Shown: one piece after another, positions 42,921 to 55,995 of the stretch
How positions within the stretch are numbered: position 1 is the stretch's first letter
Layout of the letters: the number at the start of each line of letters is the position of its first letter
Assembly: GCF_039645995.1 (NCBI RefSeq)
Contig: NZ_CP147920.1
Coordinates: 2,046,001 to 2,110,000 of the forward strand
From: Sulfurimonas sp. HSL3-1
GTDB lineage: Bacteria > Campylobacterota > Campylobacteria > Campylobacterales > Sulfurimonadaceae
Reading direction: 5' to 3'
Length of the DNA stretch: 64,000 bases
The notes under the pieces: model-generated
The model's database searches: none
The model's input: the letters and a program-made list of their open reading frames with translations, nothing else
Told to the model about the DNA's origin: nothing
Program-made: the position numbers and the translations under genes

Positions 42921-43850
42921 TTGCACCGAAAAGGGATAGCGCTGCTGATGACGCTCGCCTTCGTTACCGCCATCGCAGCCCTGATCGCCGTCGGGGGAAG
43001 CATCCTAGAACGGGGCTATAGCCAGACGGAGACGAAAGCCTTCCTCGTGCAGAGCAACACCCTGCTGCCGAGCATCTATGCGATCCTGAAACAGAATACG
43101 GGAGACATCAACGACTCCGACACCCTCGATATCCTCTTGAGCGTGCCCCTCTTCTTCGAGAACAAGCGCAACGGGATGATGATGGACATCACCTTCGCTT
43201 CGGATGCCGGGAAAGTCAACATCAACCACCTCGTCAAAAGTAACAGCGAGGTTACGGCGGACCCCTATGCCCCCCTCCCCCTCGACCCCGCGGTAGAGGG
43301 TTACCTTGAACGTATACTGACCGTTTACAATGTTTCCGATACCATTCTGCTCATTTCCATGGTAGCGGACAGTATTGATATGGACACCAACGAACGTTTT
43401 CCGGGCTCTGAACTCAGCCTGAAAAGCCCGGATTTCACCCAGGGGCACCTTTACGACATGCAGCATTTCAAGCAGGTGCTCGACGCCTACAAGCTGCTGA
43501 CGCAGGATTTCAACATCGACGACATCCCCTGGGAACACCTCATCGGCTTCCGCAATGAGGCCATCGACTTCAACCATATCGAACCCGACACCCTCCACTT
43601 CATCGACCCCGCCATCGACCCGGCGACTCTGGCGGAGATCACGACCAAGCGGGTCGCGACCTATGCCTCCCTCGACACCCTGCCCTTCGAACCGGAAACG
43701 AAACAGCTGCTGGAGGACCTCGGTGTCGCCTTTTACTCCCCGGACGTGATCGGCACCATGAACCTCCTGAGCAAAACCCGTAAGACGGCGTACACCTTTA
43801 CCTATAATCTAGCCAACCAGAAAGTGAGCGAAATTGCAGTTTCCAATTAA
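42921..43850 (+). CDS. gspK: GspK-like type II secretion minor pseudopilin
   Basis: A 309-residue protein with the N-terminal membrane helix KGIALLMTLAFVTAIAALIAVG and no Glu at position 5, which is normal for GspK. It contains FASDAGKVNINHLV (GspK start of the globular domain), SMVADSIDMDTN and a helical middle as in the SAM-like domain of GspK (YKLLTQDFNIDDIPWEHL). GspK caps the pseudopilus tip. The start is TTG at 42921, five bases after AGAGGT; an ATG five bases before it is out of frame. It is the first gene of the rightward operon. Confidence 0.85.
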   Translation: MHRKGIALLMTLAFVTAIAALIAVGGSILERGYSQTETKAFLVQSNTLLPSIYAILKQNTGDINDSDTLDILLSVPLFFENKRNGMMMDITFASDAGKVNINHLVKSNSEVTADPYAPLPLDPAVEGYLERILTVYNVSDTILLISMVADSIDMDTNERFPGSELSLKSPDFTQGHLYDMQHFKQVLDAYKLLTQDFNIDDIPWEHLIGFRNEAIDFNHIEPDTLHFIDPAIDPATLAEITTKRVATYASLDTLPFEPETKQLLEDLGVAFYSPDVIGTMNLLSKTRKTAYTFTYNLANQKVSEIAVSN

Positions 43851-44790
43851 GTTCCCCCGCTCGGAAACGCCCGTGACCACCCTGCTCCTTGACAAAGAGG
43901 CGCAGCCTGTCGACGTTCAGGGGAGGGTCGATCTGGTCCTCTCCCCGTCCCTGTACTGGTTCCGTTCCGAGGCGCTTCCCGTCAAAACGGTCTTCCAGGC
44001 CAGAAAACTCGCCCCCTCCGTCTTTGACGCCATTGTCCCGGAGGGCGTCTACAGCTACCATGTGCTCAAGCGCGACGACACTTTCTGGCTTTTTGCCTAC
44101 AACGAAGAGCAGATCATCGATACCATCGCCCGGTCGGGTATCCGCCCCACCGACGTCCGGCACCTCTATTTCGCTCAGACCGAGTGCGCCGCCCTGGAAA
44201 CCCCGCTGCGCCTCGGGGGGACACGGATCCTCTCCAGCGTCGACGGCGTCGTCACGGAACTGCCCGCCCGGTATGCCGCCGATGCCGAGGATGCGCGCCA
44301 TTTCTTCGAGACCCATGCACGCAAAGGGCCCGCCGTCGGCATCACTCTCTACCACAGTGCCCTGCTGGACAAGAAGCAGTTCAAACGCCTCAGCATCGTC
44401 GCCGCCGTTTTCGCCCTGCTCTACGGCATCGAATATTTTACGGCCCGCGCCCATCTGGCCAGCGTGCTCGAGGAGCAGGCGAAGATCGCGGACACCTACC
44501 GCCTTCCCCAGACCTCCTTTGAGCGCAACGGGCTCATCAGCGCCCTGGAAAAGAAGCAGAAGCGTCAGACCCGGCTGCGGGAGACGGCCAAAGCCCTCTT
44601 TGACCTGCCCGCCGATACGGAGAACCACCTGGAACGTCTGACCCTGACCCCGCGCAACCTGACGGTCAGCGCCGTTTTCAAAGAACCGGCGAAGGCCGAG
44701 GCGTTCAAAAAAGCGCTCATGCGCATCGGAACCATCTCCTCGGACAAACGCAAGGGCGACACCCTCTACCTGGAGGTGGCGTATGAATAA
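43834..44790 (+). CDS. GspL-like type II secretion protein
   Basis: A 318-residue protein with a cytoplasmic part of about 180 residues, one membrane helix (about 186-205, IVAAVFALLYGIEYFTA-like), and a small periplasmic ferredoxin-like domain after a coiled segment. This is the GspL/PilM-PilN plan, and the gene is between gspK and a GspM-like gene. The actin-like fold is not obvious and the motif for GspE binding cannot be seen. It begins at a TTG overlapping gspK by 17 bp. Confidence 0.7.
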   Translation: MQFPIKFPRSETPVTTLLLDKEAQPVDVQGRVDLVLSPSLYWFRSEALPVKTVFQARKLAPSVFDAIVPEGVYSYHVLKRDDTFWLFAYNEEQIIDTIARSGIRPTDVRHLYFAQTECAALETPLRLGGTRILSSVDGVVTELPARYAADAEDARHFFETHARKGPAVGITLYHSALLDKKQFKRLSIVAAVFALLYGIEYFTARAHLASVLEEQAKIADTYRLPQTSFERNGLISALEKKQKRQTRLRETAKALFDLPADTENHLERLTLTPRNLTVSAVFKEPAKAEAFKKALMRIGTISSDKRKGDTLYLEVAYE

Positions 44791-45190
44791 GATCAATATC
44801 GTCTACGTCTTCGGCGCAGCCCTTTTTCTTGCCCTGCTGATGTTCGTACAGAGCAGCCGTACGGAGCACGCCGTCCAGAACGCCCTCAAAGAGAATGCGG
44901 AAACGGCACGGTTGGGCAAGCAGATCCGCACCGCGCAGCAGCAGTGGGATGACAGCAAGCAGATACAGCGTCGCATCGACGCCATCTTGATGCAGGGCGA
45001 GTTCAAATCTTTTGTGGACCGGAAAAACAAGAACGGACGTACCTACCAGGTACAGTTCACCCCGCTGCCGGCGCAGACCTTTGACCGCCTGACGACGAAA
45101 CTCTTCAACACCCCGGTCACGATCTCGAAAATGACCGTCAGCCGGGGGAGCGACCAAAACGTCAGCCTGAGCGTGGAGTTTGCCCTATGA
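44783..45190 (+). CDS. GspM-like type II secretion protein
   Basis: A 135-residue protein: one N-terminal membrane helix (IVYVFGAALFLALLMFV), a coiled-coil segment (residues about 27-65), and a ferredoxin-like C-terminal domain (GRTYQVQFTPLPAQTFDRL ... VSLSVEFAL). It fits GspM by plan and place, following a GspL-like gene with an 8-bp overlap. It contacts GspL in the inner-membrane platform. It is shorter than typical GspM of about 160 residues. Confidence 0.7.
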   Translation: MNKINIVYVFGAALFLALLMFVQSSRTEHAVQNALKENAETARLGKQIRTAQQQWDDSKQIQRRIDAILMQGEFKSFVDRKNKNGRTYQVQFTPLPAQTFDRLTTKLFNTPVTISKMTVSRGSDQNVSLSVEFAL

Positions 45191-45717
45191 GCCGCCTGAA
45201 GATGCCCCTGTTCTACAGCGTTGCCTTCGTGCTCTTCCTCCTCGTTTTCCTGCCGAAGACGGCCCTCTACCACGCGGCGGAGGAGCAGATCAAGCCCTTC
45301 GGCCTCGCCGTCGCCGACGAAACCCCGGTAGACCGCGGGTTCGACTTCGTCCTCAGGGGCGGCAGCCTCTACTTCGAGGATCTGCACGTCGCAGACCTCG
45401 AACGGATCACCGTGACCCCCTGGCTGCTTTACAACACTGTCCGTATCGCCCCTTTTGCGTTCAGTCCGGATATGGAGGGGTTCACCCCGACCGGCGTCGA
45501 CGGCTTCAGCGTCACCTACTCCGTGCTTGATCCGCTGCATATCCGCCTCGAGGGTTCGGGGGCATTCGGCAGCGTTACCGGCCAGGTCGCCCTGATGGAG
45601 CGCAAGGTGACGATGGACCTGATCCCCTCCGCCGCCCTGCGCGCCAAGCATCCCTTCTGGCTGAAACAGCTGCGAAGCATCGAAGGAGGGGCATACCGCT
45701 ATGAAACAACGTATTAA
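45187..45717 (+). CDS. GspN-like type II secretion protein
   Basis: A 176-residue protein with one N-terminal membrane helix (PLFYSVAFVLFLLVFLP) and a beta-rich periplasmic part of repeated strand pairs (VLRGGSLYFEDLHVADL; MEGFTPTGVDGFSVTY; HIRLEGSGAFGSVTGQVAL). GspN proteins share this layout and occur in some T2SS loci with unknown role. It overlaps the GspM-like gene by 4 bp and gspC by 17 bp. Confidence 0.6.
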   Translation: MSRLKMPLFYSVAFVLFLLVFLPKTALYHAAEEQIKPFGLAVADETPVDRGFDFVLRGGSLYFEDLHVADLERITVTPWLLYNTVRIAPFAFSPDMEGFTPTGVDGFSVTYSVLDPLHIRLEGSGAFGSVTGQVALMERKVTMDLIPSAALRAKHPFWLKQLRSIEGGAYRYETTY

Positions 45718-46510
45718 TCCGCTCTGGGTACGGCGCTTCATCGTTCTGGCCATCCTCGCCGCCGTCGCCAAAGCCCTGATGCTCGTACTGGCAACGCAGC
45801 TGCCCTACGGGGGCGTAGAGCCGACCGTCGCCGCGGGGGAGAGCCTCAGCTACTCCCGCTACACCCCCTCGCGTCTCTTCGGGATCGAAGCGCACAAAGC
45901 CGCGCCGAAAAGCGGCGGCAAGCAGACCGAGGTCTACCGCCTCGACGCTCTGACGCTCCGGGGGATCTACCTCGAGGCGCACAACGCCTTCATCCTCGTC
46001 GAAGAGGGTGTGAAGACCGAGCTGTTCTCTATCGGCGACCGCTACAAGCGCTACACCCTCGTCGACATCCTCCCCGACAAAGCGATTTTCGAAAAAGACG
46101 GGCAGCGCTATGCCCTTGCCTTCAAAGAGGAGAACATGGGGCCTATCGCAACCGCCCCCGTGCCGTCATCATCCGTTGTCACCCAAAACGGCTTCACCTC
46201 CATCAAACGCAAGGAAGTGCGCTACTACTCCGAACATTTCGACGCGATCTGGCAAAACATCAAAATCCAGGAGGTCTACCGGAACAAGAAGCTCACCGGC
46301 TTCGAGGTCAAATGGATCAAAAAGGATTCGATCTTTGCTAAAATGGGACTACAGGAGCACGACATCATTACCGGCATCAACGGCAAACCCCTCACCTCCG
46401 TGGCAGAGGTGCTAAAGCTCTACAAGAACATGGACCAGATCGACAACCTGACTCTGGATATCCAGCGAAACAACACAGAAAGGCAGCTTGACTATGCAAT
46501 TTACGACTAA
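45701..46510 (+). CDS. gspC: type II secretion protein GspC (HR + PDZ)
   Basis: A 269-residue inner-membrane protein. A membrane helix (about 12-33) is followed by a proline/serine linker and an HR domain (LTLRGIYLEAHNAFILVEEG and DKAIFEKDGQRYALAF). Residues about 185-260 are a PDZ-like domain (DSIFAKMGLQEHDIITGING). GspC connects the inner platform to the secretin GspD. The gene overlaps gspD by 17 bp. Confidence 0.88.
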   Translation: MKQRINPLWVRRFIVLAILAAVAKALMLVLATQLPYGGVEPTVAAGESLSYSRYTPSRLFGIEAHKAAPKSGGKQTEVYRLDALTLRGIYLEAHNAFILVEEGVKTELFSIGDRYKRYTLVDILPDKAIFEKDGQRYALAFKEENMGPIATAPVPSSSVVTQNGFTSIKRKEVRYYSEHFDAIWQNIKIQEVYRNKKLTGFEVKWIKKDSIFAKMGLQEHDIITGINGKPLTSVAEVLKLYKNMDQIDNLTLDIQRNNTERQLDYAIYD

Positions 46511-48401
46511 ACTCCTCACCCTGCTCATCGCGGGGACCCTGGCATTCGGCACTGCCGCGGCCGCACGCGAACAGGTCAATCTGAAGCTCCAGGACATCAA
46601 GATCGAGGAGCTGATCAAGATGGTCGGCAAAGCCAACGGCAAGAATATCCTGCTGGACAAGCCGATCCCCGGCACCGTCAACTTCGTCTCCTCCACCCCC
46701 ATCTACAAAGACGAACTCTTTACGATTCTGCTCTCCGTCCTGAACAGCAAGGGCTTCACCATGGTGCAGGAGGGCAGCTACCTGAAAATCGTCCGCCAGA
46801 ACGTTGCCGTCAAGGAGAACCTGCCGATTAATGCCCGCAGCGGTTCGGCGCTGATGCAGACGCGCTTTATCTCCGCCAAAAACGAGAACATCGACGTGAT
46901 CGCGGCAAAGGTCCGCCAGTTCCTCTCCCCGGCCGGCAAACTGCTGACGATCAAAGAGAACAACATGATGATCGTCAGCGACACCCCGGGCAATATCGGC
47001 GTCATCGAAACGATCGTCAAAAAGATCGACCGGGATCAGGCCAAAGACGTCCGCGCCGAATTTATCCCGCTCTCCAGTGCCAAAGCGAGCCGCCTGGCCG
47101 CCTCCATCACCAAGATCGCCAAAGCGATCATCAACCAGAAAGTCGAGAACAACAAGGTGGAGATCCTCAGCGACGACGCCACCAACGCCATTATTATTCT
47201 CGCGACCCAGGAAAACATCGACAAGTTGACCCCGCTCATCAGCCGCCTCGATGAAAAAGACGACTCGACCAATCAGCGTCTGACGATCATCCCCCTCGAG
47301 AACAGCGAAGCCAAGAACGTCGTTGCTTCCCTGCAGGCGGTACTGGACAAGAAAAAGTATGCCAAAGAGGCCGACAAGCCTACGGTGAGCGTCTATGACG
47401 AACTTAATGCCCTCGTCGTCTCCGGGCTGGAATCCGACATCAACGATATCCGTGCCATGATCAAAGTCCTCGACGTCGAAAAGCCGCAGGTCTTCGTCAA
47501 AGCCCGGATCATCGAGATCAACCAAAACATGGCCGACAGTATCGGTGTCAAATACGGTCTCGCGGGCGGGGCCGTCACCGATGCCGGCCTCTTCACCTTC
47601 GCCGCCGACCTCGGCGGCGCGGCCATCGCCTTCGACGGCGGCGGGCTGATCAATCTCAGCAGCGCCACCTTCGACTCGGGAATCGCCTTCGGCGCCACGA
47701 TCGACTTCCTTGCCAGCAACGGCGCGGCGAACACCCTGTCGCAGCCGACCCTGCTCTGTGTGAACAACCAGGAGTCCTCCATCTACGTCGGGCGCACGGA
47801 GCCCATCGTCACCTCCACCGCCCAGGCCGCCGATACCACCTCCGTCGCGCGCAACACCTACACCCGCGAAGATATCGGTCTGACCCTCAAGATCAAGCCG
47901 CGCCTCTCCCAGGGGAACAAGGTGACCCTGATCACGACGGCCAAGCTTGAGGACATTCTCAACAGCTCCGTCGCGGGGCTTCCGAGCACGACCAAGCGCG
48001 AAGTCGTCACCACCGCCATTGTCGGCAACGGCGAAAGCGTCATCATCGGGGGGCTTATCTACGACAAGAACCGCGACGAAGCGCAGGGGATCCCCTACCT
48101 GCGCGACATCCCGCTCATCGGCGGCCTCTTCGACTGGCGATACAGTACGCACGAGAAGATCAACCTCGTCATCGTCCTGACGCCGTTTATCGTCCGCAAC
48201 AGTGACGAGATGACGAAGATACGCAAACTGCTCCAGGAACTTGACGGTATCCAGGACGAATATGAGAAACTGATTGAGCAGAAACTCGAAGAGCGCAAAG
48301 AAGAGCTCGATAAGGATGCCTCCGACAGCAACACGAACGATGCTTCCCAGACATCCGCGTCCGACAGTGCCCTCTCCGTCATCACGCCGGCCAAGCGATA
48401 A
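46494..48401 (+). CDS. gspD: type II secretion secretin GspD
   Basis: A 635-residue secretin. After the signal peptide (LLTLLIAGTLAFGTAAAA) come N0/N1-type domains (VNLKLQDIKIEELIKMVGKA; AKEVRQFLSPAGKLL-like; ILSDDATNAIIILAT) and then the secretin core with IDFLASNGAANTLSQPTLL, GLTLKIKPRLSQGNKVTLI and the C-terminal VIIGGLIYDKNRDEAQGIPY, PLIGGLFDW. It forms the outer-membrane gate. The acidic, coiled C-terminal tail (about residues 590-635) may be the pilotin-binding S domain. The start may be the ATG at 46494 or a TTG two codons before it. Confidence 0.95.
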   Translation: MQFTTKLLTLLIAGTLAFGTAAAAREQVNLKLQDIKIEELIKMVGKANGKNILLDKPIPGTVNFVSSTPIYKDELFTILLSVLNSKGFTMVQEGSYLKIVRQNVAVKENLPINARSGSALMQTRFISAKNENIDVIAAKVRQFLSPAGKLLTIKENNMMIVSDTPGNIGVIETIVKKIDRDQAKDVRAEFIPLSSAKASRLAASITKIAKAIINQKVENNKVEILSDDATNAIIILATQENIDKLTPLISRLDEKDDSTNQRLTIIPLENSEAKNVVASLQAVLDKKKYAKEADKPTVSVYDELNALVVSGLESDINDIRAMIKVLDVEKPQVFVKARIIEINQNMADSIGVKYGLAGGAVTDAGLFTFAADLGGAAIAFDGGGLINLSSATFDSGIAFGATIDFLASNGAANTLSQPTLLCVNNQESSIYVGRTEPIVTSTAQAADTTSVARNTYTREDIGLTLKIKPRLSQGNKVTLITTAKLEDILNSSVAGLPSTTKREVVTTAIVGNGESVIIGGLIYDKNRDEAQGIPYLRDIPLIGGLFDWRYSTHEKINLVIVLTPFIVRNSDEMTKIRKLLQELDGIQDEYEKLIEQKLEERKEELDKDASDSNTNDASQTSASDSALSVITPAKR

Positions 48402-48403
48402 CC

Positions 48404-49918
48404 ATGCTGAACATACCCGAACTCGAAGGGGTCGACCTCAAACCCCACCCGCTTGAGTCCGTCGACCTGAACCTCAGCCTGCGCAGCTACGTGCTCTTCA
48501 GTGAGATCGACGGCGAGGTCCATATCGTTCTCGGGCGGGCACACCTCTCCCAATCCTTCGATTTCCTGGCCAAGTTCGACCTAGACCTCCCCCTCGTCAT
48601 CGTCGATGCCGACTCCTTCGACCGCCTCTACAACAAGTTCCTCGAGATCCGGACCGACTCCGAGCTCAGCGGGATCGAACAGGAGCAGGAGGAGATCGAA
48701 GAGGAGGAGATGTCGCTTTCGGACTTCCTGCACACCTCCTCGGACCTGCTGACCAGCGAAGAGTCCGCGCCCGTCATCAAATTCGTCAACGCCCTCTTCT
48801 ATCAGGCCGTCAAACAGCGCGCCTCGGATATCCACGTCGAGGTACACGAATACAAAGGAGAGGTGCGCTTCCGCGTGGATGGGGCCCTCGTCAAGCACGC
48901 CGACATCGAGAAACGGGTCGCCAACCTGATCATCAGCCGTATCAAAGTCATCTCCAACCTCGACATCGCCGAGAAACGTGTCCCCCAGGACGGCCGTACC
49001 CACGTCAAGATCGCAGGGAAGACCCTCGATGTCCGGGTCTCCGTCCTGCCGACCTACTACGGCGAGCGGGTCGTTATGCGGATGCTGATGCAATCCGAGG
49101 ATATCCCCCATCTCGAGGGGCTCGGCTTCGACCACGCACTGACACGGCAGCTTGACGAGATGCTCAAGCACTCCCACGGCATCATCCTTGTCACGGGACC
49201 GACGGGGAGCGGGAAGTCGACGACGCTGCACGCCTTTTTGCAACAGGTCGCGACCCCCGATATCAACATCATCACCGTCGAAGACCCCGTCGAGTACAAG
49301 GCCGACAACATCAACCAGGTCCAGACCAACGCCAAAGCGGGCCTTACCTTCGCCTCGGGACTGCGCTCCATCCTGCGCCAGGACCCCGATGTCGTCATGG
49401 TCGGGGAGATCCGCGACAGCGAAACGGCCGAGATCGCCATCCAGGCCGCACTGACCGGCCACCTGGTCTTCTCGACGCTGCACACCAACAACGCCACCGC
49501 CTCCATTACCCGTCTCGTCGATATGGGCATAGAGCAGTTCCTCATCAGCTCTTCGCTGCTGGGGGTCCTCGCCCAGCGCCTCGTGCGCAAACTCTGCCCC
49601 GAGTGCAAACAGCAGTGCGTCCTCGCCGACGAGTATGCCGAAGAGCTCGACCTGCCCCAAGGAGCCGTTGTCTTCGAGGAGCAGGGCTGCAAAGCGTGCA
49701 ACTACACGGGGTACGCCGGCCGCCAGGCGATCGGGGAGTTCTTCGAAATGACCGATGAACTCGTCGCGATGCTCAAGGACCGGGTCAACGACCACGACCT
49801 CCGGGCCAAGGCGATCGCCCTGGGGATGACCCCGCTCTCCAGCCAGCTCAAAACCCTGCTGCTGAACGGAACGACATCCCTGCACGAGATCATCCGCGTC
49901 GGGGTCAAGGACGCCTGA
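48404..49918 (+). CDS. gspE: type II secretion ATPase GspE
   Basis: A 504-residue hexameric ATPase. N-terminal domain to about residue 110 ends in an acidic run; the core has the SDIHVEVHEYKGEVRFRVDG strand, Walker A GPTGSGKST (265-273), Asp box VEDPVEY, Walker B PDVVMVGEIRDSETAE and His box HTNNATASI. A tetra-Cys zinc knuckle (CPECKQQC ... CKAC) is in the C-terminal part, typical of GspE. It drives pseudopilus assembly. It ends by overlapping the next gene by one base (TGATG). Confidence 0.95.
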   Translation: MLNIPELEGVDLKPHPLESVDLNLSLRSYVLFSEIDGEVHIVLGRAHLSQSFDFLAKFDLDLPLVIVDADSFDRLYNKFLEIRTDSELSGIEQEQEEIEEEEMSLSDFLHTSSDLLTSEESAPVIKFVNALFYQAVKQRASDIHVEVHEYKGEVRFRVDGALVKHADIEKRVANLIISRIKVISNLDIAEKRVPQDGRTHVKIAGKTLDVRVSVLPTYYGERVVMRMLMQSEDIPHLEGLGFDHALTRQLDEMLKHSHGIILVTGPTGSGKSTTLHAFLQQVATPDINIITVEDPVEYKADNINQVQTNAKAGLTFASGLRSILRQDPDVVMVGEIRDSETAEIAIQAALTGHLVFSTLHTNNATASITRLVDMGIEQFLISSSLLGVLAQRLVRKLCPECKQQCVLADEYAEELDLPQGAVVFEEQGCKACNYTGYAGRQAIGEFFEMTDELVAMLKDRVNDHDLRAKAIALGMTPLSSQLKTLLLNGTTSLHEIIRVGVKDA

Positions 49919-50391
49919 TGCGTCCCGCCTTCACCCTCGTCGAAGTGCTGGCCGCCGTCGCGATTGCAGCGATCGCGGGGGCGGCCCTGCTGAAAATGAA
50001 CAGTTCAAACCTCTTCTTCCTCGGCCAGCTCGAACAGACCTCACGCATGACCGAAGATCTCGCCGTCGCAGCCCTGCATGCCGACAAACGCTTCCACCGC
50101 AGTGATAAGGCGTTGTATGACCTGCTACGCGACAGCTACACCATCGCGAACGACGATCTGCGTGCCTACCTGAAATCCCAGCAGTTCCGCTACACGGAAA
50201 CCCTGGTCGATACCATCTCATTCGATACCGGGACACTGACCGAAGGTACAGGATCGGGCGAGGAGTTCGATGCCAGGGACATCGAGGCCGCCGGTGCCGT
50301 GCCGCCGATCCAGTTCGAACTTATCCAGGTGACACTCAGTGCCGAACGCCGGCACGGTTCCATGCTCACCATCAGGCCCATCTCCCAATGA
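49918..50391 (+). CDS. GspI-like type II secretion minor pseudopilin
   Basis: A 157-residue protein with an extremely short leader: MRPAFTLVEVLAAVAIAAIA, with the Glu at mature position 5. The peptidase site is Ala-Phe, not Gly-Phe, like GspG here. The rest is a mixed helix-strand globular part. GspI is the usual minor pseudopilin in this place between GspE/H and GspJ, so the assignment rests mostly on context. It overlaps the next gene by 4 bp. Confidence 0.7.
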   Translation: MRPAFTLVEVLAAVAIAAIAGAALLKMNSSNLFFLGQLEQTSRMTEDLAVAALHADKRFHRSDKALYDLLRDSYTIANDDLRAYLKSQQFRYTETLVDTISFDTGTLTEGTGSGEEFDARDIEAAGAVPPIQFELIQVTLSAERRHGSMLTIRPISQ

Positions 50392-51002
50392 AACGCACCG
50401 CCTTTACCCTGATGGAACTGCTGATCTCCGTCGTCCTGATCGCCATGCTGGCCCTTTTCCTCTACGGGGCCCTTGGGGGAAGCCGCGCCAGCAATCAGAC
50501 CATGCAGCGCCATGCCGATGCGGAGGCCAAACGGCTCAAACAGTTTACCCTGCTCTACCGCGACTGCGTCGAGTCCTACGCCTTCGGCGTACTCTCCACC
50601 AACGACAAGCACTACCAGGTGCTGCAGTTGCAGACAAAGAACTCCCTCTACGGCATTGCCGCGCCGTATGTGACCTACTTCGTCCATGCGGAGACCCTGC
50701 AGCTTGTGCGCCTGGAAGCCGCCTTTCCCATTACCCTGCCCGTACCCTACGATGACAAGGAACGCATCCACATCAACGTCATCGACAGCGATGTGACCGA
50801 CTTTAATATCTATACAGGGAAAGTGAAAGAGACGCAGGATCAGAATAGCACCACCGCAGCGGGCGATTCTGCGGCTGCCGCCGCGGGGACAGAGGGGTCT
50901 ACAGCAGCACTGGAGGGGGGAGCCCGCACGATAAAATCCCACCTGCTCTATCTGAAAACCAAGGGGACGCAGCAACCGCTGCTGATGGAGCTTGCTTTCT
51001 AA
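50388..51002 (+). CDS. GspJ-like type II secretion minor pseudopilin
   Basis: A 204-residue protein with the leader MKRTAFTLMELLISVVLIAM and Glu5. The C-terminal third holds a low-complexity Ala/Thr/Gly/Ser run (about residues 155-180) that looks like a variable loop. GspJ pairs with GspI and GspK at the tip of the pseudopilus. It is the last T2SS gene in the window and ends 6 bp from the convergent dxs stop. No prepilin peptidase (GspO) gene is present. Confidence 0.72.
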   Translation: MKRTAFTLMELLISVVLIAMLALFLYGALGGSRASNQTMQRHADAEAKRLKQFTLLYRDCVESYAFGVLSTNDKHYQVLQLQTKNSLYGIAAPYVTYFVHAETLQLVRLEAAFPITLPVPYDDKERIHINVIDSDVTDFNIYTGKVKETQDQNSTTAAGDSAAAAAGTEGSTAALEGGARTIKSHLLYLKTKGTQQPLLMELAF

Positions 51003-51008
51003 GAGGCC

Positions 51009-52844
51009 TTACGCTTCCTGAAGGGTTTTGCGAATCCGCTCCGCAAGCTGTTCGGGGCGCAGCCCCAAGGACGCTTCCACTTTGAGCGTCGCGCCGTGGG
51101 TGATGAAGGCGTCTGCGTATTCGAAGCTTTGCAGACGAACATCTCCGATCTCTTCCGCAGCAAGCCACTCCAGCAGGGCACTTCCCACGCCGCCCGCGGC
51201 GGCAGAATCGCTGAAGACGTACCAGCGCTTGTGTCGGGCCGAGAGCATCCGGAGCAATTCCGCATCGAGGGGCTTGGCGAAGCGCAGGTCCAGCAGGGCC
51301 GCAGGCATCCCGAGCTGTGAGAGGGTCTGCGCCGCGCGGCCGACCCCGTTACCGTACCCGATCAGCAACAGATCGCTCTGCGCTTCAATCAGCAGCTCCG
51401 CCTTGCCGTATTCAAAGGGCGCCGATTCCGGCAGCTCCGCCTCCAAAAATGCGCCCCGGGGGTAGCGCAGACCCAGCGGGCGGTCAAAGGCCGCCGCGAA
51501 GGCCACGGCCTGATGCATCGACTTTTCGTCCCGCGGCGCGCAGAGCGTCATGTTCGGGATCGCACGCAGGAAACTGATATCAAAGGCGCCCTGGTGCGTC
51601 TCGCCGTCTTCGCCGACGATCCCCGCACGGTCCATCGCGAACACGACCGGGAGGTCCATCAGGCAGACGTCGTGGATCACCTGGTCGTACCCGCGCTGTA
51701 AAAAGGTGGAGTAGATCGTACAGAAGGGCTTGAACCCCTCTTTGGCCAATGCGCCCATCGACGTCACGGCGTGCTGCTCGGCAATCGCCACGTCCCAGAA
51801 ACGGTCGGGATACTTCTCGAGTAGGGGCGTCAGGCCGGTGCCGCTCGGCATCGCCGCCGTGACGCCGACGACCTTCTCATCACGGTCGGCCTGATGCATC
51901 AGTGCCTCGGTGTAGATCTGTGTCGCACTCTTGCTTCCCCCGCTTTTCTTCCGCGAGATGCCGCTGTCGATATCAAAAGGACCGACACCGTGCCACTGTT
52001 CGTGCTGACCCTCGGCGATCTTGTACCCTTTGCCTTTGACGGTCTGGGCATGGATGATCACCGGTTTGCCCATTGCACGGGCCGTCTCGAAGGTCTCGAC
52101 AAGACGCTTGATATCGTGACCGTCGACGGGGCCGATATACTCTATGCCCATCTCCTCGAAAATGATGCCCGGCGTGATCAGCTTGAACGACTCTTCAAAG
52201 CGCTTGGCCAGGTAGTGCGCCCCTTCGCCGAAATGGTCCACGAAGGTCTCCGTGCCGCGTTTGATCTTCTGGTAGAGCGGGCTCGCCATGGCGGAGCTGA
52301 GCATGCGGCTCACGGCCCCGATCGGCTTGGCGATGCTCATCTCGTTATCGTTGAGAATGATCACCATCGGGTATTCGCGCTCGCCCAGTTCGTTGAGCGC
52401 CTCATAGGCCATCCCCGCGCTCAGCGCCCCGTCGCCGATCATCACGACGGGAATCCGCTCGTGCTGCTCCTGCTTGAGCGCGATCGCCTTCGCCGCGCCG
52501 ACGCCGAGGGAGATGGAGGTGGAGGAGTGTCCCGCGACATAATAGTCATGCTCGCTCTCCTTGGGCTTCGTGTAGCCGCTGAGGCCGTCGAACTGGCGCA
52601 GGGTGGCAAACTCCTCCCAACGCCCCGTCAGCAGCTTATGGGCGTAGGCCTGATGGGAGACATCGAAAATAAAGGGGTCTTTGGATGAATCAAACACCGC
52701 ATGCATCGCCACGATCAGCTCGGTCGCCCCCAGGGTGGAGCTCAGGTGTCCGCCGTTGGTACTGACCACGTCCAGGATCCGTTCCCGGATCGCGCGGCAC
52801 TGTGCCTCAAGCGCTTCATAATCGTGCAATGGTTTTTGATTCAT
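51009..52844 (-). CDS. dxs: 1-deoxy-D-xylulose-5-phosphate synthase
   Basis: A 611-residue thiamine-diphosphate enzyme. STNGGHLSSTLGATELIVAM is the N-terminal signature; the ThDP motif is VVMIGDGALSAGMAYEALNE ... ILNDNEMSI. VPLHGTK-type second-domain residues include AIAEQHAVTSMGALAKEG, and the transketolase C-domain ends near EWLAAEEIG. It joins pyruvate and glyceraldehyde 3-phosphate, the first step of the MEP isoprenoid route. The ATG at 52844 follows AGGATAGG. In C. jejuni, dxs follows fliF, fliG and fliH; here it follows the chimera at 52919. Confidence 0.96.
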   Translation of the reverse strand: MNQKPLHDYEALEAQCRAIRERILDVVSTNGGHLSSTLGATELIVAMHAVFDSSKDPFIFDVSHQAYAHKLLTGRWEEFATLRQFDGLSGYTKPKESEHDYYVAGHSSTSISLGVGAAKAIALKQEQHERIPVVMIGDGALSAGMAYEALNELGEREYPMVIILNDNEMSIAKPIGAVSRMLSSAMASPLYQKIKRGTETFVDHFGEGAHYLAKRFEESFKLITPGIIFEEMGIEYIGPVDGHDIKRLVETFETARAMGKPVIIHAQTVKGKGYKIAEGQHEQWHGVGPFDIDSGISRKKSGGSKSATQIYTEALMHQADRDEKVVGVTAAMPSGTGLTPLLEKYPDRFWDVAIAEQHAVTSMGALAKEGFKPFCTIYSTFLQRGYDQVIHDVCLMDLPVVFAMDRAGIVGEDGETHQGAFDISFLRAIPNMTLCAPRDEKSMHQAVAFAAAFDRPLGLRYPRGAFLEAELPESAPFEYGKAELLIEAQSDLLLIGYGNGVGRAAQTLSQLGMPAALLDLRFAKPLDAELLRMLSARHKRWYVFSDSAAAGGVGSALLEWLAAEEIGDVRLQSFEYADAFITHGATLKVEASLGLRPEQLAERIRKTLQEA

Positions 52845-52895
52845 CCTATCCTCGTACAATGGCCTCTCCCTGAAAAAGGGGGAAAAAGGTGAAGC

Positions 52896-52918: not shown

Positions 52919-53785
52919 TCAACCTTCTCCGCCCCGGTGCGTATTCGCGGCTTCAGCTTCAAGTAATGTGATCAGCCCCTCGTGGGGGTGCCCGCGGCGC
53001 AATGCGTTCAGCAGTGCCGTGCGCGTCCCCGGAGAGAGGCTCCGGTAGATCGCGAGCATCTTCACCGTTGTCTCCGCGGGCCGCACCCTTTTTTGCAGCG
53101 CCTTCGCCTTCGCGGCAAAGAGCTCCGCCACCCGCATGCGAAGCCCCTCGTCACAGCTTCCGCTGAACGCCATCCGTTCCCAGACCCGGTCGCGTTCATG
53201 GGCACCCATCGCCTCCATGGCTGCGGCGGCTTCCGCCGTCGCCAGCCCGAGAAGGTAGACCGCGACGGTCTGGGGATGCTCCCCCTCGAACAGCCGCGCC
53301 GCTCCGAAGGCAGCACGGGCAGTCGGCACGGGGGCGGAAGGTTCCGGCGCCGGCCGCGTTTCAGTGTCCGCTGCAGCTGCCATGGGTGTCGCGATCGAGT
53401 CCCTTAGCAGCACAGCGAGCCGACGCGACACCAGTGCCAGCGCCCCCGCCGTCAGAAACAGCAGAAGCAACATGCCTCCCTGCGCCGCCCGGTCGGGCTG
53501 CGGCCGGGCCTCCCCCAATGAGAGCCCCTGGCGCTGGAGACGTGCCGCATCGCTTTCATCCACGAGGATGCTGCCGTCCTTCTGAACGCGGTAATCGGCG
53601 TCAAGCAGCTCCAGCCGTTCGATCAGCCGTGCCGTTCCGACCGGGTCCGCGATGGAACCGATAGCGATCTCCGTATGGATAAAGGTGCGGTAAAGCATCC
53701 CTCCTATCAGGAGAGATCCGCACAGCAGAAGCGCGAACAAAACGGCGGTTTTCGGGAGCGATGAAAAACCTTCCGCGCCCTTCAT
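52919..53785 (-). CDS. FliF/FliG chimera: membrane ring-building module joined to a FliG-like domain
   Basis: A 288-residue protein. Residues 12-31 are a membrane helix; 32-92 resemble the first ring-building motif of FliF (YRTFIHTEIAIGSIADPVGTA ... YRVQKDGSILVDESDAARLQ, like FliF segments just after its first helix). Residues 104-121 form a second helix, 130-158 are a Pro/Ala linker. From about 165 comes LFEGEHPQTVAVYLLGLATA, which carries the EHPQ motif of the FliG middle domain, and a helical domain to the end. Normal FliF (about 560 residues) and FliG (about 340) are missing here: the other FliF ring motifs, FliG N- and C-terminal parts and FliH have gone. GGAGG precedes the ATG; hisC ends 12 bp upstream. 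In C. jejuni this site holds fliF-fliG-fliH. The FliF part is more tentative than the FliG part. Confidence 0.7.
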   Translation of the reverse strand: MKGAEGFSSLPKTAVLFALLLCGSLLIGGMLYRTFIHTEIAIGSIADPVGTARLIERLELLDADYRVQKDGSILVDESDAARLQRQGLSLGEARPQPDRAAQGGMLLLLFLTAGALALVSRRLAVLLRDSIATPMAAAADTETRPAPEPSAPVPTARAAFGAARLFEGEHPQTVAVYLLGLATAEAAAAMEAMGAHERDRVWERMAFSGSCDEGLRMRVAELFAAKAKALQKRVRPAETTVKMLAIYRSLSPGTRTALLNALRRGHPHEGLITLLEAEAANTHRGGEG

Positions 53786-53797
53786 CCCGCCCTCCGG

Positions 53798-54892
53798 TCA
53801 GACCAACTCCGCGGCCAGGGCGAAAAAGCGGTCGTTCTCTTCGGGCTTGCCGACGGTCACACGGATCGCGTTGAGGCCGTACCCGGCCAGGTTGCGTACG
53901 ATCATCCCCTGACGCAGCAGGGCGTCGGCGACCTCCGTGGAGCTCGTCCCCTCCTTCAGACAGAGGGTGACGAAGTTCGTATAGCTCTCGATCGCCCGGA
54001 TGCCGTGCGCTTCGGCGAAGGCCTCGTAACGGTCCATCTCCTCGAAGTTCTTCGCGATGCACCTCTGCACGAACGCTTCATCCTCCAAGGCCGCGGAGGC
54101 GGCTTCGAGGGAGAGGGTCGTGATGTTAAAAGGCGGGCGGAGCTTGTAGAGCGCGGTAATGATATCGCGCTGCGCAATGCCGTACCCGACCCGCATTCCC
54201 CCGAGTCCGTACGCTTTCGAGAAGGTGCCCAGGTAGAGCACATTGTCATATGCTTCGATGAGCTCTTTGGGCTCCAGGGCCTTGGCGGAATCCTTGTAGC
54301 GGGCGTACTCCATGTAGGCGCCGTCGACGATGACGAGCGTCTCCCTGTCGATCTTGGAGAGAAACGCTTTCACGTCCGCCGCGTCGGCGCTGTCACCGGT
54401 CGGATTGTTCGGCGTGCAGAGGAAGATAATGGAGGGTTTATGTTCCAGGTAGAGGGCATAGAACTCGTCGAGATCATGCGCGCGTGATGCCGTGCGGATC
54501 ACCTCCGCGCCCACGTGATGGGCGTAGATCTCGTACATCGCAAAGGTGATGCTGTTGATGAGGATCTTCTTGCCCGGCCCCGTCTTGGCGTGCACCGCGA
54601 ACTCGATCACCTGGTCCGAACCGGCACCGATGACCACTTCATGCGGGTCGATGCCGAAACGTTTGGCCAGACCGTCCTTGAGCTTGTACATGGAGTCGTC
54701 CGGGTAGAGGGCCATCTTGGAAACGATCGCGCTGACCGCTTCTTGTACCTTCGGTGAGCACCCGAAAGGGTTCTCGTTGCTGGCGAGCTTGATAATGTCC
54801 TTGGGCTCGATCCCGAACTCGCGCACGACAAGCTCGATCGGCTTGCCCGCCTCATACACCCTGATGGCATCCAGTGTCTGATTGAAAGTCAT
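53798..54892 (-). CDS. hisC: histidinol-phosphate aminotransferase
   Basis: A 364-residue PLP enzyme: [18 protein letters not shown] is the family N-terminal motif, [27 protein letters not shown] and [19 protein letters not shown] (PLP Lys) the cofactor site, and [11 protein letters not shown] the C-terminal Arg. It makes histidinol phosphate; HisC of this group can also act on aromatic amino acids, which would suit the neighbouring pheA. The ATG at 54892 overlaps the pheA stop (ATGA). Confidence 0.95.
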
Positions 54893-55995
54893 TGTTCCCC
54901 TTCGACGTAGCTTCCCAGCCACGTCACTTCATCGGTATGTTTTTTCAGTATCTTCTGTACGTTTTTATCATCGATATGGCCGTAGAAATCGATGAAGAAC
55001 CAGTACCCGAACCCCTCCTGGCTCTTCGCAGGGCGGCTCTCGATCTTACTGAGGTTGATCTTCGCCTTGTCGAAATCATGCAGGAAATGCACGAGGACCC
55101 CGGCGCGGGTCGTCTTTTTCAGCTTGGCGAGAATGGAGGTCTTGTCCTGCCCGCTCGGCGCGTTCTTGAAATCGCTGAGGATGATGAACCGCGTCGTGTT
55201 GTCATGGACATCCTCGATGTTCTCGAACATCATCGGCACGCCGTAGAGTTTGGCGGCGATATGGCTGCAGATCGCCGCGGCTTCCGGATCTTCCGAAGCC
55301 AGAATTGCCGCTTTTGCCGTCGACTCCACGGGGATCTGCTGTACGTTGAGCAGCCCGTGCTCGTTGAGGAAGTTCCGGCACTGCCCGAATCCCTTATCCT
55401 TGGAGTAGATCCGTTTGATGCCGTCCAGATGCGCCGCTTTGGTCGAAAAGGTCATGTGGATCGGCATGTAAAGCTCTGCGACGATCTTCATCGGGCTCGT
55501 CGCCAGCAGGTCGAGGGTCTCCCCGACGGCACCGTCCTGACGGCTCTCGATCGGGACGACGCCGAACTTCGCGCGGCCGCTCTCAAGCGCCTTGAAAACC
55601 CCCGCGATCGTACTCATCGGGAGGTATTCGCTCATGGCGCCGAAACGGCTCTCCGCGGCCTGGTGGGTGAAGGTCCCCTCGGGACCGAGGTAGACGATGC
55701 GTTCGGGCAGTTCCAGGTTGCGTGCCACCGCGAAGATCTCCAGGAAGATCGCCTCGATGGCACCGGCGTTGAGCAGTCCGTGCTGCTCGGCGTTGAGCGT
55801 CTCAAGACGCTGCAGGATCGCCTTTTCCCGTTCGGGGCGGTAGATCGGGGCCCCGCTCTTGTTTTTGATCTCCCCGACGCGTTCCACCACGGCCATGCGC
55901 TCATTGATCAGGGCCAGCAGCTCCGTATCGATGGCATCAATGGCGTCGCGGCACGCTTCGAGGCTGTCCAACGCTTTTATCGCTTCGCTTTTCAC
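54889..55995 (-). CDS. pheA: chorismate mutase / prephenate dehydratase (P-protein)
   Basis: A 368-residue bifunctional enzyme. Residues 10-95 form an AroQ chorismate mutase ([20 protein letters not shown]). Residues 98-280 are prephenate dehydratase ([36 protein letters not shown]). Residues 285-360 are an ACT domain ([20 protein letters not shown] ... [13 protein letters not shown]) that binds phenylalanine for feedback control. The family Asn and Thr near the dehydratase site are partly changed (ESRQDG for ENSxEG). It overlaps the HAD gene by 4 bp. Confidence 0.95.

Follow-up and report, generated by a model that had tools for sequence, protein, structure and literature searches.

The window analysed here, a 64,000-nucleotide stretch of the Sulfurimonas sp. 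HSL3-1 genome, carries on its minus strand the gene order rplY-pth-lptG-lysA-HAD-pheA-hisC-X-dxs, where X is a single open reading frame (52919-53785, minus strand) that encodes 288 amino acids with no internal stop. It is flanked upstream by hisC (53798-54922, minus strand) and downstream by dxs (51009-52859, minus strand). In flagellated members of the same family this place is occupied by hisC-fliF-fliG-fliH-dxs, and hisC, fliF, fliG and dxs also share a single locus in three more distant genomes. These data confirmed the original prediction that the rplY-to-dxs chain is kept in order and direction with one 288-residue gene in place of fliF-fliG-fliH. The start codon of X lies 12 nt past the hisC stop, and the good ribosome binding site that had been predicted is present as a Shine-Dalgarno sequence, GGAGGG (53790-53795, minus strand), 4 nt upstream of the ATG and preserved in the near orthologues L003-L006. 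Adjoining dxs on the plus strand (43834-51002) is an ordinary T2SS-like cluster encoding a secretin, a GspE-type ATPase and pilin-like proteins.

The product of X (all of its features are on the minus strand) begins with a membrane helix resembling TM1 of FliF (residues ~12-36, 53678-53752), recognized by hydrophobicity, AF2 and hhalign, followed by an RBM1-like periplasmic segment (residues 37-97, 53495-53677) and a second membrane helix (residues 98-131, 53393-53494) recognized by hydrophobicity and AF2. The hydrophobic stretches of these two helices span residues ~13-31 and 101-119, matching the pair of membrane helices expected from the sequence. The Pro/Ala linker, also expected, covers residues 132-160 (53306-53392), with pLDDT below 50 over residues 131-161. 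Beyond it lies a FliG middle (ARM) domain (residues 161-232, 53090-53305), identified by Pfam, hhalign and Foldseek, which includes the EHPQ motif (EHPQT here; residues 169-172, 53270-53281). This motif, which in FliG belongs to the FliM-binding surface, is invariant in seven of seven orthologues. The remaining C-terminal residues (233-288, 52922-53089) were modelled by AF2 as helices at 236-249, 252-265 and 270-284 and gave no Pfam match to FliG_C.

The suggestion that this protein is a FliF/FliG chimera was supported by profile comparisons. For the FliG part, Pfam FliG_M matched residues 163-230 of the window protein above its cut-off (E = 1.1e-7), and in hhalign a profile of the seven orthologues aligned over residues 161-258 with FliG residues 129-226 (E = 3.6e-9, probability 96%), which bears out the predicted EHPQT motif and helical domain. 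For the FliF part, the match of the window protein alone was not significant (8.0 bits), so that the claim of a FliF-like segment rests on the orthologues: the orthologue from G061 passed the YscJ_FliF cut-off in Pfam (25.4 bits), and the seven-orthologue profile aligned over residues 13-93 with FliF residues 22-105, collinear from TM1 through RBM1 (E = 8.5e-5), and with RBM1 itself at E = 9.8e-6. FliM, as a control for the same profile, gave 0.83. The AF2 model of the chimera was of low confidence (pLDDT 64, pTM 0.29) and showed the layout TM, beta-alpha-beta-beta-alpha, TM, disordered linker and helices; the best Foldseek matches of this model were FliG structures (top match 3usy), none below E = 0.07 but with probabilities as high as 0.98. 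A PDB sequence search with the chimera alone returned nothing significant, tblastn against plasmids returned nothing, and the sole return from a scan of the contig collection came from an actinobacterium and aligned to the FliG_M region.

Taken with the genomic slot, these results strongly support the conclusion that the chimera is a condensed descendant of fliF and fliG, in which FliF has been cut to TM1-RBM1-TM2 and FliG to its middle domain. Like FliF (PF01514, YscJ_FliF), the chimera has TM1, an RBM1-like segment, a second TM helix and the fliF place in the genome; unlike FliF, it has no RBM2, RBM3 or demonstrable C-terminal FliG-binding region, and its FliF part amounts to ~130 residues as compared to ~570. 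With FliG (PF14841, PF14842 and PF01706) it shares the middle ARM domain and the EHPQT sequence found in Campylobacterota FliG, but it is membrane-anchored, and neither FliG_C nor a full FliG_N was found in it with Pfam. Its score against TIGR00207, the NCBIfam FliG equivalog, was 15.9 bits, far below the cut-off of 226.7 bits. Engineered FliF-FliG fusions (for example, PMC11481574) likewise join the two proteins in one chain; those were built to study a working motor, whereas the chimera is natural, truncated and found in aflagellate cells.

Orthologues of the chimera occupy the same slot in other genomes of genus g1: G027 (93% identity), G036, G010 and G056 (68-69%), G050 (36%) and G061 (30%). 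In two other genera the slot holds proteins of related composition. The slot protein of G028 (genus g12) is a single chain of 548 amino acids that matches RBM1 (E = 4.8e-12) and FliG residues 7-334 (E = 1.7e-76), and by Pfam it has YscJ_FliF and all three FliG domains (FliG_N, FliG_M and FliG_C). The FliF C-terminal FliG-binding helices appeared plausible by alignment in this fusion, but their score (11.9 bits) was no better than that of the best shuffle, and this assignment was rejected. In genus g8, which has no FliF, the slot proteins are 303 to 320 amino acids long and contain a pair of neighbouring TM helices and, after these, FliG_M, FliG_C or both. FliG_C, the torque domain, is present in the slot proteins of G028 and G007. 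The 548-residue fusion and the TM-TM-FliG_M-FliG_C arrangement of g8 strengthen the chimera reading, and the various slot forms (separate genes, 548-residue fusion, 288-residue chimera) look like intermediates. The tree gave no support for the joint monophyly of g1, g8 and g12 and did not reject it either (AU p = 0.28), so that it does not separate one condensation from several. In some genomes the slot gene has been reduced further or lost: G025, of genus g8, retains only a 91-residue FliG_C scrap, and G044 has nothing there. Although G044 is labelled as the same genus, a four-gene tree placed it elsewhere, and its lack of both the chimera and FlhG is therefore weak evidence of linkage between the two. 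In G012 (L075), hisC is ~68 residues short and nearly abuts dxs, through either deletion of the slot gene or misassembly. In an order-wide search most family f6 genomes had no FliG_M; the chimera is therefore not a general feature of aflagellate Campylobacterota.

The source genome (G000; 2,499,021 bases in one contig, 100% complete) was searched for other flagellar components. In this complete genome, Pfam searches gave no match to YscJ_FliF and hence no full-length FliF, FlhA was absent, no FliMN_C-bearing protein reached threshold, and the single FliG_M match was the chimera itself. The organism is therefore aflagellate by gene content. A true FlhF was likewise absent, with only FtsY/Ffh-level matches found. 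Thiomicrolovo and Sulfonitrofixus were described in 2025; on flagellar genes the description reports their absence and nothing further, and it gives Thiomicrolovo as non-motile and coccoid to oval (PMC12403661). A 2022 survey of Campylobacterota reported that the aflagellate lineages it treated, namely Sulfurovum/Nitratifractor and a Campylobacter subclade, had lost every flagellar gene (PMC9321776).

One could speculate that the chimera belongs to a reduced basal body that still rotates or takes part in export, as a minimal motor or a type III secretion remnant. Its FliF-like and FliG-like domains and the FliG_C torque domain kept in g8 are compatible with this; however, a profile of FliF residues 118-445, covering RBM2 and RBM3, matched no slot protein, its sole match being the true FliF of G050, and this together with the lack of FlhA, of FliG_C and full FliG_N in the window chimera and of any FliMN_C protein at threshold in G000 makes such a basal body highly improbable. 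RBM2 and RBM3 are the main ring-building parts of FliF, and the earlier proposal that the protein still forms a membrane ring was accordingly left unsupported.

Between orthologues the dN/dS ratio of the whole chimera gene was 0.17 to 0.32, with bootstrap upper limits of 0.32 to 0.40. The ratio differed by domain: it was ~0.08 in the RBM1-like segment and 0.2 to 0.35 in FliG_M, and reached 0.7 to 0.9 in the linker. The chimera is thus under purifying selection, and the pattern fits a working two-domain protein, not a drifting remnant. A decaying, pseudogene-like relic of fliF-fliG with no present function might be expected where the flagellum has been lost, and it would be consistent with the higher ratio of the chimera compared to hisC (0.01-0.09) and with the fate of the slot gene in G025 and G044, which shows that it can be lost. 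We nevertheless regard a relic as improbable: the upper limits lie well below 1, constraint follows the domains, the reading frame is intact in seven orthologues as divergent as 30% identity, the ribosome binding site is preserved in the near ones, and the two genes described next, mini-FliM and flhG, are also constrained.

FlhG is retained in the source genome outside the window (flhG, G000:C1 979402-980226). In flagellates the N-terminal enhancer helix of FlhG (QAxKL) stimulates FlhF (PMC12826062). All six FlhGs that were inspected from flagellated genomes (G001, G026, G467, G209, G214 and G312) had the helix, and it was missing from 13 of 13 FlhGs of the aflagellate lineages in g1, g8 and g12. 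The C-terminal amphipathic membrane helix, on the other hand, was kept in all 12 aflagellate-lineage copies in which the C-terminus is covered, a count that leaves aside the helix-less FlhG of G050, which runs off its contig. Loss of the one helix and retention of the other suggest that FlhG has been freed from FlhF yet is still held at the membrane.

Directly downstream of flhG is a gene of 182 codons (G000:C1 980229-980777) in the fliM position of the canonical order flhF-flhG-Cj0062-fliA-fliM-fliY. Its product carries a near-invariant EIDAL-like motif at the N-terminus, VLNQAEVDALMELF, as compared to ILSQEEIDALL in FliM, and its first residues, GVLNQAEVDALMELFGTAPK, match this FliM N-terminus. 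Over residues 4-23, three pairs of genes differed by 16 synonymous codon changes and 1 non-synonymous change. With regard to the CheC-like middle domain of FliM, the protein gave a weak match to a FliM profile (E = 1.3e-3, probability 18%, hhalign), and the top 12 Foldseek matches were all FliM or FliY, but the model used for them was poor (pLDDT 46). No Pfam family matched above cut-off; DinB_2 (E = 0.002-0.02, below cut-off) was judged a chance match. There was no match to the C-terminal SpoA domain (PF01052) in G000. In genus g8, where the slot encodes a membrane FliG, flhG is likewise followed by a condensed FliM-like gene, whose match to SpoA is weak. With moderate confidence, we conclude that the 182-residue protein is a mini-FliM. 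In G049, contig C88 (L158, 3-747) bears a fragment of flhF, then a gene for a 164-residue SpoA-domain protein and mnmA; the GC content of this contig is below that of the rest of the assembly, and the fragment may stem from contamination or represent a second remnant.

Both loci are readable in 13 genomes. Of these, 11 have the slot protein together with the FliM-like gene, and 2 (G025 and G012) have lost the pair, a count that is uncorrected for kinship and in which the G012 locus may be misassembled. FlhG does not strictly need these partners, since G025 and G012 retain it where they are gone or reduced to scrap. The converse was seen in G061 and G028, which have a slot protein and no FlhG that could be found in assemblies that are 76% and 80% complete. 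One interpretation is that FlhG alone is functional and that the chimera and mini-FliM serve a separate role, such as signalling or envelope sensing. The persistence of FlhG in G025 and G012 would fit, but we think that there is little chance of this: the N-terminal motif of mini-FliM, which corresponds to FlhG's binding site in other flagellates, is almost completely constrained, the mini-FliM gene adjoins flhG, and neither the slot protein nor the FliM-like gene occurs without the other in any of the 13 readable genomes.

A role for these proteins beyond motility has been documented in the same phylum. In Campylobacter jejuni, which has no Min system, FlhG acts with FliF, FliM and FliN to suppress polar division (PMC3228812), and in fliF, fliG and fliM mutants the polar localization of FlhG falls by half or more (PMC6946799). 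In monotrichous flagellates the N-terminus of FliM is bound by FlhG (PMC12826062). C. jejuni and the source genome have FlhG, FliF, FliG and FliM, or their derivatives, in common, and MinC was not found in G000, which therefore shows the combination of FlhG and no MinC that characterizes the FlhG-dependent division system. FlhG of C. jejuni is polar and requires proteins of the MS ring and C ring. The two differ in that the C. jejuni scaffold is an entire, functioning flagellum, with FlhF, FliN and FliY among its proteins; in G000 the flagellum, FlhF and the FlhF-stimulating helix of FlhG are gone, and FliF-FliG and FliM are condensed.

What has been retained (a membrane anchor, FliG_M, FliM and FlhG) is what a chain recruiting FlhG to division sites or poles would need. 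The chimera would serve as the inner-membrane anchor of a three-part module, its FliG_M domain with the EHPQ motif would bind mini-FliM, and the EIDAL-like N-terminus of mini-FliM would bind the MinD-like ATPase FlhG. FlhG, bound to the membrane through its own C-terminal helix and positioned by the module, might then exclude FtsZ from the poles or mark the pole or division site in some other way. We infer the contacts among the three proteins, the polar location and the division role from these gene data and the C. jejuni precedent, and we give an even chance to our preferred reading, in which the chimera is a membrane scaffold of flagellar origin and positions FlhG to control the division site or pole. 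What speaks most against it is the retention of FlhG in G025 and G012 where the other two are gone. The original prediction had offered, as one option, a two-part scaffold for another machine. Of the machines that it named, polarity control fits best, given flhG and mini-FliM at the other locus; no evidence was found that the chimera serves the nearby T2SS or pili.

FlhG/ParA-type ATPases place many polar structures. It is conceivable, then, that the chimera, mini-FliM and FlhG form a scaffold that places another polar machine (a type IV pilus, the T2SS or the chromosome origin) and has no part in division. The T2SS/pilin cluster at 43.8-51.0 kb is nearby; however, the hisC-dxs slot is the ancestral place of fliF-fliG-fliH, so that closeness to T2SS genes is uninformative, and no link between the cluster and the chimera was found. 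Since the published non-motility function of these proteins in the phylum is division control, we consider placement of another machine unlikely, at perhaps one chance in a few.

If the chimera does position FlhG for division or pole control, the module might stand in for MinCDE. FlhG resembles MinD and has a C-terminal amphipathic helix; as compared to MinCDE, MinC is missing from G000 and the proposed adaptor is derived from FliM and FliG. MinC is also missing from most flagellated relatives, and the flagellated and g1, g8 and g12 genomes of family f1 mostly do not have it; its absence is thus not special to the chimera-bearing group. In family f6, FlhG was absent from all 13 FliG-less genomes searched, and several aflagellate genomes without FliG_M or FlhG have minC-minD-minE (L134, L136, L137, L138, L140 and L141), with others having neither. 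It is possible that FlhG and Min systems have been exchanged in Campylobacterota. We propose, as a tentative reading with somewhat less than an even chance, that after loss of the flagellum only those components of the motor base which recruit a MinD-like ATPase were kept, that they were condensed to FliF-FliG and mini-FliM with FlhG cut off from FlhF, and that they replace MinCDE, perhaps separately in two or three aflagellate genera. Evolution would then appear to have stripped away the motor but spared a candidate FlhG scaffold, a minimal three-protein system with an intermediate-like series. This bears on how the flagellar rings of C. jejuni guide FlhG and on whether the division role is separable from motility.

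The G050 genome is relevant to this last point. On contigs C18 and C8 (L155, L068 and L156) it has a complete-looking second flagellar gene set, comprising FlhA, FliF, FliG, FliM, a FliN-like protein, FlhF, a helix-bearing FlhG and stator-like and hook genes. This set is only distantly related to that of the family (34% identity between its FliF and the family's own) and was probably acquired by transfer after the native loss, with assembly contamination as the residual alternative. Alongside the foreign set G050 still has both the chimera and a helix-less FlhG, which points to a function outside motility.

A further FlhG-like protein was observed outside this group. G313, a complete genome from another family that has no FliG_M, encodes a diverged FlhG-like ATPase of 257 amino acids (L139, 1396-2169, minus strand) without the enhancer helix. 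Its gene sits between folK and a LOG gene, and this may be a separate instance in which FlhG has outlasted the flagellum.
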